Source: Moraxella sp. | GTDB taxonomy: Bacteria > Pseudomonadota > Gammaproteobacteria > Pseudomonadales > Moraxellaceae | Direction of reading: 5' to 3' | Assembly (NCBI RefSeq): GCF_024227015.1 | Contig: NZ_JAAELD010000088.1 | Location: forward strand, 1-34,529 | Length of the DNA: 34,529 nt | Shown: in pieces, positions 2,982 through 10,997 of the stretch | How the letters are laid out: every line of letters starts with the position of its first letter | Position numbering within the stretch: the stretch's first letter is position 1 | Program-made: the position numbers and the translations under genes | The notes under the pieces: generated by a model | Told to the model about the DNA's origin: nothing | The model's input: the letters and a program-made list of their open reading frames with translations, nothing else | The model's database searches: none

Positions 2982-3455
2982 ATGGTCATCACTAAAGTCT
3001 CAAACGCCTTGTCATCGCCATTCATCGCGCACTCATTCGGCATTGTTCGCACTCATCTTAACGTGAAGTCAATCATCTGTTTGATGGTTATCTTGGCGAG
3101 CATGATGAATTTTGCCCACGCCAACCCACGCTTCATGGCGACTCACGGCACGTCTTATCAGTCATCTGAGCCAGATTTGGCGGTGACACAGTATGAGCTT
3201 GCTTTGGTGCAGGTGTTGTCTGAGATCTGTCCGCCCATGCTGACCGCCAATCAGCGCGTTGCATTTACCCGCGCTTACAATCAACAATTACGCTCATTCA
3301 TCCTGACATCCGCCAGCCCAAATGACACGCTGCGACGGATGCATTCACAGCGTAACTATCGTAACGCCCTAAATAGCGTGCGCGCATGGACGGCAAGCTA
3401 TCCAAAAGCTCAAAATCGCAAATTATGTCTACAGTTCGCTGAAGTTGAATTTTAA
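2982..3455 (+). CDS. Small secreted protein of unknown function
   Basis: I do not recognise this 157-aa protein. It has an N-terminal hydrophobic segment (IICLMVILASMMNFAHA) fitting a Sec signal peptide with cleavage after AHA. The mature part is about 110 residues, mostly helical in character, with cysteines in SEICPP and RKLCLQF that could pair in the periplasm, and basic patches (RRMHSQRNYRNA). The start is uncertain: the ATG at 2982 lacks a ribosome site and leaves 27 extra residues before the signal peptide, whereas a GTG at 3063 would give MKSIICLMVIL, a textbook signal-peptide start (130 aa). A -10-like element at 2972-2977 also argues for the later start. It has its own terminator and sits alone between ruvB and hemB. 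Confidence 0.7.
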   Translation: MVITKVSNALSSPFIAHSFGIVRTHLNVKSIICLMVILASMMNFAHANPRFMATHGTSYQSSEPDLAVTQYELALVQVLSEICPPMLTANQRVAFTRAYNQQLRSFILTSASPNDTLRRMHSQRNYRNALNSVRAWTASYPKAQNRKLCLQFAEVEF

Positions 3456-9357: not shown

Positions 9358-9384
9358 AAAAATAGCTGACAATGCTATTTTTTT
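9358..9384 (+). terminator. Terminator after the cca operon
   Basis: A perfect 9-bp dyad AAAAATAGC / GCTATTTTT with a 7-nt loop and a T-run. It lies 150 nt past the stop and physically overlaps the permease promoter. Confidence 0.75.
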
Positions 9385-9394
9385 ACGGTACAAT
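9367..9394 (+). promoter_or_regulatory. Strong sigma70 promoter of the permease gene
   Basis: TGACAA, 16 nt, TACAAT: both hexamers match 5/6 if TGACAA is read as a TTGACA variant shifted by one base, and the spacing is normal. The -35 lies in the loop of the upstream terminator. Transcription would start near 9401, giving a leader of about 210 nt. Confidence 0.6.
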
Positions 9395-9415
9395 GCGCTT
9401 CTATTTTTCATCTGA

Positions 9416-9458
9416 AAAATCCCAAATCTGCCACATCGGCGTTTTTGGGTTTTATTTT
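9416..9458 (+). terminator. Terminator-like hairpin inside the permease leader (candidate attenuator)
   Basis: AAAATCCCAAA pairs with TTTGGGTTTT (10 bp, one bulged T) and is followed by ATTTTG. It lies between the promoter at 9367-9394 and the ribosome site at 9599. The rest of the 404-nt gap before the permease shows no gene. Confidence 0.4.
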
Positions 9459-9611
9459 GTAAAAAATTCTTGGAGTTGATAGCTTAATCAAATCTCAAAC
9501 ACGCCCAAATCAGATTATCCCGATCTGTCATTAGCACGTTTGAAACAGTATTACGCACCCCAACGCCTTTTCTCTTTTTTGCGTTTACGCACGCTTTTGG
9601 AGGATAATACG

Positions 9612-10997
9612 TTGAGTATTTCACCTGTTCCTGCTAATGCTGCCAAGTTGCAGCGTAATCTTGGTCTATGGCACGTCATCATTATTGGTCTTGCCTATAT
9701 TCAGCCGATGACACTACTTGATACCTTTGGTATGGTATCTCGCGACAGTGGCGGTCATGTCCCCATGTCCTATATCTTTGCCCTGATTGCCATTTTGCTG
9801 ACATCAATTAGCTACGGTCATATGATACGGGCATACCCATCCTCAGGCTCTGCCTATACCTACACCCAAAAAGCAATCAACCCATCAATGGGCTTTATGG
9901 TCGGCTGGTCGAGCTGGCTAGACTACCTGCTTTCGCCGATGGTTAATATCATCTTGGCGGTGCTATATCTTGAAGCTCTATTCCCCTCGGTGAACCATTG
10001 GGTTTGGGTAATTGGCCTGACAGGTCTGATGACCATCGTCAATATTTTTGGCTCAAAGACCGTTGCCTACTTTAACAGCTGGATCGTAGCGGTGCAGTTG
10101 GTGGTTATTGCTGTATTCACCTATTTGATCTATAGCAAGCTACAAATGGCACAGTACGCTGCCAACACTCGCCCTGAAGACATCTATGAGCTGTGGAGCT
10201 TGAAGCCATTCTGGGATGAGATGACCAGCGTTGGTGCGTTGATCACAGGTGCGACCATTCTATGCTTCTCGTTCACAGGCTTTGACTCGATTTCTAGCCT
10301 TGCTGAAGAGACCAAAGACGTTAAAAACACCCTGCCAAAAGCAATGATTCTAACAACGCTGATCGCAGGTATGGTATTTATCATCAGCGGCTACTTCATG
10401 CAAGCTTACCTACCAAGTAGCCCTGAACTGTACTTTGAAGCGGTGGATGAGACTCAAGCAGAGATCTTGCTACTTGTGGGTGGTTCGGCATTCCAAGCGA
10501 TCGTACTGGGCTTTGCAATTGTCACAGTAATGGCGTCTGGTATCTCAGCTCATGCTGGCGTATCTCGTCTGATGTATGTGATGGGTCGTGACGGCGTGAT
10601 CAGCAATAAGATTTTTGGCCAATTAAGCCCGAAATTCTTCACTCCAGTGAACAACATCCTGATCGCAGGTGGCGTGGCATTGACCGCAGGCTTTATTAGC
10701 CTAGAGACAGTGGTAAACCTAATCAGCTTCGGTGCGTTGACTGCATTTAGCTTTGTGAACCTGTCGGTAATCTTCCGCTATGCCATTCGGGATAAACGCA
10801 TCAAAACCCCAAAAGAGATTTTTAACTACGTCATCATACCTACACTTGGCTTTATCAGCATCTTCTTGATGTGGCTAGAAGTGGATAGCATCACCTTTGG
10901 TGTGGGTATCTTCTGGGCATTCTTAGGCTTTATCTGGCTAAGCATCAAGACAGGCGGCTTCAAAAAGCCAGTACCTCAATACCGCGAAGACGTGTAA
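9612..10997 (+). CDS. APC-family permease, PuuP (putrescine importer)-like
   Basis: A 461-aa inner-membrane carrier of the amino acid-polyamine-organocation family with about 12 hydrophobic segments. It closely follows E. coli PuuP as I remember it: LGLWHVIIIGLAYIQPMTLLDTFG, GSAYTYTQKAINPSMGFMVGWSSWLDYL, GATILCFSFTGFDSISSLAEET, HAGVSRLMYVMGRDGV and SFGALTAFSFVNLSVIF. A putrescine or related amine/amino-acid substrate is inferred. The tracked ORF starts at a TTG (9540) with no ribosome site; a perfect GGAGG at 9599-9603 sits 8 nt before TTG 9612, which gives MSISPVPANAAKLQRNLGL, so I chose that. It has its own promoter and terminator. dat/ddc in the same window make polyamine chemistry a natural theme. 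Confidence 0.87.
   Translation: MSISPVPANAAKLQRNLGLWHVIIIGLAYIQPMTLLDTFGMVSRDSGGHVPMSYIFALIAILLTSISYGHMIRAYPSSGSAYTYTQKAINPSMGFMVGWSSWLDYLLSPMVNIILAVLYLEALFPSVNHWVWVIGLTGLMTIVNIFGSKTVAYFNSWIVAVQLVVIAVFTYLIYSKLQMAQYAANTRPEDIYELWSLKPFWDEMTSVGALITGATILCFSFTGFDSISSLAEETKDVKNTLPKAMILTTLIAGMVFIISGYFMQAYLPSSPELYFEAVDETQAEILLLVGGSAFQAIVLGFAIVTVMASGISAHAGVSRLMYVMGRDGVISNKIFGQLSPKFFTPVNNILIAGGVALTAGFISLETVVNLISFGALTAFSFVNLSVIFRYAIRDKRIKTPKEIFNYVIIPTLGFISIFLMWLEVDSITFGVGIFWAFLGFIWLSIKTGGFKKPVPQYREDV

Follow-up and report, generated by a model that had tools for sequence, protein, structure and literature searches.

A conserved, probably folded mRNA leader before the UUG-initiated putrescine importer gene of Moraxella

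In Moraxella, a putrescine importer gene is preceded by a leader of which about 140 bases are conserved and probably folded, and this leader, together with a UUG start codon, probably controls the amount of importer that is made. We lean, by a modest degree, toward reading the leader as a cis-regulatory RNA, so far undescribed and specific to Moraxella, that controls initiation of translation of the importer. We class it as a new candidate family of structured mRNA leaders; the label riboswitch is not justified from the sequence. Rfam gave no gathering-level match in the window (the whole 34,529-nt stretch of Moraxella sp. DNA that was analyzed), relaxed thresholds gave chance-level matches only, and a search of the literature available to us found no paper describing a Moraxella RNA motif of this kind. 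The features discussed below, in window coordinates, are as follows.

9358 to 9384, plus strand: A/T-rich hairpin AAAAATAGC/GCTATTTTT (9358-9382) with a T-run, around the -35 hexamer (from sequence).
9366 to 9394, plus strand: promoter with -35 CTGACA (9366-9371), 17-nt spacer, and -10 TACAAT (9389-9394); 10 of 12 consensus matches.
9421 to 9458, plus strand: terminator-like 10-bp hairpin CCCAAA..TTTGGG (9421-9449) with tail TTTTATTTT (from folding z and genome pattern count).
9472 to 9561, plus strand: conserved leader core, starting GGAGTTGATAGCTTAATC; proposed sensing or binding domain (from pairwise identity and covariance model R2).
9482 to 9556, plus strand: predicted outer helix, GC 9482-9483/GC 9555-9556 and UAAU 9485-9488/AUUA 9550-9553; pairs 93.8 to 100% kept in alignment A5.
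9495 to 9543, plus strand: predicted helix P2, UCAAAC 9495-9500/GUUUGA 9538-9543; kept in both leader subtypes.
9511 to 9527, plus strand: predicted hairpin P3, CAGAU 9511-9515/AUCUG 9523-9527; 98.7% of alignment cells paired.
9561 to 9614, plus strand: proposed masking helix, CAACG 9561-9565/CGTTG 9610-9614 (start codon inside) and CCTTT 9566-9570/GGAGG 9599-9603 (RNAalifold consensus).
9599 to 9603, plus strand: Shine-Dalgarno GGAGG (from sequence).
9612 to 10997, plus strand: PuuP/PlaP-type putrescine importer of the APC family, with a UUG start (PF00324/PF13520).

Which transporter does the leader precede? The permease is 44% identical to Escherichia coli PuuP over its full length (461 aa) and 50 to 51% identical to plasmid-borne copies annotated as PlaP, and so has the full-length homology to characterized proteins by which the PuuP/PlaP family is recognized. 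Orthologues at 60 to 73% identity occur in Acinetobacter (our genus g15, assigned by its 87% nucleotide identity to A. baumannii) and in one other genus of the family; elsewhere in the order, the homologues found were all much weaker. In two Moraxella genomes there is a second, divergent importer paralogue (L063, G013:C1, about 719900-720100; L064, G009:C15, about 3000-3150), which also has a TTG start and lies behind a different leader, conserved between the two. Beside this paralogue on G013:C1 is a 1,117-codon open frame (L077:3-3353), a candidate that looks Cas12a-like by eye. In a search of the Moraxella genomes for SpeA, no protein reached the cutoff and only decarboxylase paralogues were recovered; a second, shorter decarboxylase paralogue is present in G003, G004, G006, G008, and G012, and four of these are genomes with the short leader subtype described below.

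The first-pass annotation had proposed a promoter (written as TGACAA-16-TACAAT) overlapping the preceding terminator and, after it, a leader of roughly 210 nt. The promoter is present, with its -35 hexamer inside the loop of the A/T-rich hairpin, and transcription starting about 7 nt past the -10 hexamer, near 9401, would give a leader of about 211 nt. Nearly all Moraxella leaders have an equivalent promoter (TTGGCA/CTGACA-N17-TAAAAT) at the corresponding alignment position. The A/T-rich hairpin, which may act as terminator for the SDR (pteridine reductase-like) gene upstream, is disrupted in most relatives in the same leader comparison. Since the -35 hexamer lies in the loop of a hairpin that a T-run follows, the promoter of this lineage may overlap the upstream terminator.

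As the first-pass annotation presupposed, the leader is conserved across Moraxella, strongly so over the approximately 140 nt that follow the terminator-like hairpin. The core (9472-9561), a conserved 5' leader segment of the kind expected of riboswitches, had a mean pairwise identity of 89.8% across 14 Moraxella genomes; the 70 nt preceding it averaged 54.9% and the last 50 nt before the TTG 76.6%. For comparison, identity in the permease gene was 56.2% at third codon positions and 92.0% at codon positions 1 and 2. Indel lengths in the Moraxella leaders are not divisible by three, and the 20 leaders have no upstream open reading frame (ORF) in common (one candidate preceded by a Shine-Dalgarno sequence was seen, in one species only); the constraint on the leader is therefore not coding. 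Regulation of speF involves a leader ORF, and a conserved upstream ORF with a ribosome-binding site, as in leader-peptide attenuators of the odc1 or speF type, was not found among these leaders. An in-frame extension of the permease up to a TTG at 9540 was also rejected, since indels in relatives break the frame.

When relatives were searched at the DNA level, the leader turned up in most members of the genus, and a pattern scan of GTDB genomes gave their names as Moraxella: M. bovoculi, M. lacunata, M. caprae, M. oblonga, M. catarrhalis, M. cuniculi, M. oculi, and others. The R2 covariance model, which takes in the entire conserved leader, matched 9472 to 9624 in its own genome and the equivalent place in 14 others. 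The element is single copy in each genome and stands always and only before the putrescine-importer gene; with this single gene context, its signal is not readable from a regulon. Several candidates elsewhere were set aside. No extra copy before another gene was convincing (a weak R2 match in G010 reads, by eye, like protein-coding DNA), pattern matches outside Moraxella lack the rest of the element, and those weak matches of the Acinetobacter model R1 in other genera that were inspected likewise read by eye like protein-coding DNA.

The predicted structure combines consensus folding with a helix drawn by hand. The RNAalifold consensus of the long leader subtype (15 genomes) contains P2, P3, and the masking helix. 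The short subtype, found in 5 genomes with M. catarrhalis among them, retains GGAG, GATAGC, TAATC, and P2 and shows two compensatory pairs; a model built on the long subtype only finds it at the right place, with E values of 0.001 to 0.06. Within P2, L019, a short-type leader from M. catarrhalis, has a compensatory change from U-A to C-G; the tips that lengthen P3 in several species vary in length and are, by eye, largely self-complementary. The outer helix (GC.UAAU/AUUA.GC) was the one drawn by hand and then checked on the alignment, and RNAalifold pairs part of its strand locally instead; its pairs are mostly invariant and therefore show little covariation. A covariation analysis across relatives, which the first-pass annotation had called for, gave a divided answer. 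Double-sided changes were found at 4 pairs in 9 cells, compared to 2.1 in shuffles and with 0 of 500 shuffles reaching 9, on an alignment that was fitted to the structure, but no pair covaries within the long subtype and many core pairs never vary, so that the support from covariation is modest. Folding energy was moderately low for the whole leader (z = -2.3) and unremarkable for the conserved part alone (z from -2.8 to +0.8). An unusually stable fold was accordingly rejected, and the case for more than chance rests on conservation and not on stability.

At the 3' end of the leader, the perfect GGAGG and the TTG start codon (9612-9614) were both present as first described. TTG is the start in 62 of the 62 family orthologues examined, each preceded by a Shine-Dalgarno-like motif, and an annotated A. 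baumannii copy starts at the TTG position as matched by residue count. Among distant Pseudomonadales homologues (n = 7), the best start candidate is mostly ATG, with one unclear. In the proposed masking helix, 90.5% and 96.9% of cells are paired in its two parts, with three double-sided pairs, on an alignment fitted to the model. The opening energy of the start region, 11.1 kcal/mol, is ordinary for the window's genes (mean, 10.5; standard deviation, 5.9), and an unusually closed start site was rejected. Given these ordinary folding and opening energies, we put masking of the start site forward as a proposal. One leader (L017, G017:C35) keeps the core and has most of the masking-helix region replaced by another possible helix (AATCTAA/TTAGATT).

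How might such a leader act? We propose that transcription would begin near 9401 and that the RNA from 9472 onward would fold into the conserved core of outer helix, P2, and P3. In the approximately 50 nt that follow, CAACGCCUUU would pair with the Shine-Dalgarno sequence and the UUG start and thereby lower initiation. A signal bound by the core would then shift the balance between a masked and an open start site. The signal would most plausibly be a polyamine or a related metabolite, or else a protein or a small RNA (sRNA); the one pointer to polyamine sensing is the gene product. The terminator-like hairpin that separates the promoter from the core would be dispensable for this switch.

The alternative that survives best, possible though rather unlikely, is that the core, rather than being a metabolite aptamer, is bound by a factor acting in trans, either a CsrA-like protein or Hfq with an sRNA, that blocks or opens the Shine-Dalgarno sequence. 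A leader conserved more in sequence than in stability would fit such a partner, and the core opens with an invariant GGAG that, together with the GGAGG Shine-Dalgarno, resembles paired CsrA sites. Nevertheless, a conserved stretch of some 90 nt is longer than a single sRNA or CsrA site would usually need, and the helices are kept across both leader subtypes. An extensive network of Hfq and sRNAs is described for Acinetobacter (PMC12802169), but the importer gene is not named in the main text of two Acinetobacter interactome papers.

An unlikely explanation is that the gene belongs to a polyamine modulon, in which the UUG and a partly hidden Shine-Dalgarno sequence would raise translation as polyamines rise, with no dedicated aptamer. 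The start codon is of the inefficient kind in every orthologue and the gene product is a putrescine importer. Moreover, polyamines stimulate UUG-dependent initiation of cya and gshA in E. coli, and the effect on gshA dropped from 2.4-fold to 1.1-fold when UUG was changed to AUG (PMC4405209). This explanation accounts for the start codon but not for approximately 90 conserved nucleotides far upstream of it, and it implies a positive loop for an importer.

The first-pass annotation had pointed to a 10-bp hairpin with a U-run in the leader and had read the long leader, the hairpin, and the rare start codon as signs of attenuation, translational control, or an unrecognized riboswitch. The hairpin is real and well formed as a terminator: it lies between promoter and gene, the segment around it (9402-9470) folds with z = -3.5, and its spaced pattern was counted two times in the genome and never in the reversed control. 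A regulated terminator would be expected to persist among relatives, but this one was seen in only about 6 of 20 orthologous Moraxella leaders (similar hairpins are limited to L002, L003, L006, L009, and, loosely, L014), and L004 and L013 have only about 25 nt between the inferred transcription start and the core. In addition, inspection by eye showed no antiterminator that would pair with the core. Judged from the alignments, the hairpin is lineage specific and lies outside the conserved element; with so few leaders carrying it and so little room in L004 and L013, it is peripheral to the question, and we consider transcription attenuation very improbable. What stands of the earlier reading is the unrecognized regulatory RNA, which fits best with a conserved leader and TTG and no Rfam match. 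An RNA thermometer is scarcely credible: a short A/U-rich masking helix covers the Shine-Dalgarno sequence in both subtypes and could melt with temperature, but the conserved upstream core would not be needed and the start region opens with ordinary energy.

Our preferred reading of a cis-regulatory RNA acting on translation initiation also finds support in the Acinetobacter orthologue, whose leader contains a different, equally conserved element of approximately 80 nt, GGGGGGATCGTTCGTCTCAAACGATCC...CTGATCCTTGATCAACGATTATGAGGATAACGCCGTTGAC. Its hairpin has 98.9% of cells paired and one compensatory pair, and model R1 found one strong match per genome, before the importer orthologue, in more than 60 genomes. 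R2 misses the Acinetobacter leaders and R1 misses the Moraxella leaders, so that no homology between the two was detected by these models; the leaders either have diverged past recognition or are of separate origin. Acinetobacter leaders (L031-L050, L058-L062, L065-L070) carry two ATCCT copies, each of which might pair with the Shine-Dalgarno sequence. A further idea, that in Moraxella the core binds putrescine or a related diamine as a riboswitch and so gates translation from a masked UUG, with an unrelated RNA filling this role in Acinetobacter, is a speculation we hold to be quite doubtful.

Convincing polyamine-sensing RNAs are rare, and a leader before a single putrescine-importer gene makes a compact test case, one that bears on translational control of uptake by diamines, a protein, or an sRNA. 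Its genus includes pathogens of humans and animals, the different leader in Acinetobacter provides a parallel, and the UUG conserved in all 62 orthologues is by itself a testable regulatory feature.

How does the leader compare with known systems? A 2023 paper found earlier evidence for polyamine-sensing RNAs unconvincing and reported one spermidine class, a variant of SAM-I located before biosynthesis genes (PMC10853860). The Moraxella leader shares with it a position before polyamine genes and possible polyamine sensing but precedes an importer, has an unrelated sequence, and lacks a SAM-I match. The odc1 and potE motifs (PMC8632094) are also leader RNAs before polyamine genes. The odc1 motif includes an upstream ORF, whereas the Moraxella leader has no conserved one; the potE motif resembles it in preceding a polyamine transporter (an antiporter), in being genus limited, and in its weak covariation, but is restricted to Veillonella and environmental sequences. 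The Salmonella speF leader (PMC6386406) likewise takes alternative conformations before a polyamine gene, although these respond to arginine. Members of the E. coli polyamine modulon such as cya and gshA share a UUG start in a polyamine-related setting; the accessible part of that work (PMC4405209) describes no putrescine importer and no comparably long conserved leader among them. The leader in A. baumannii and its relatives, although without detectable sequence or model homology to that of Moraxella, stands before the same gene and combines a UUG start with a conserved hairpin and possible masking of the Shine-Dalgarno sequence.
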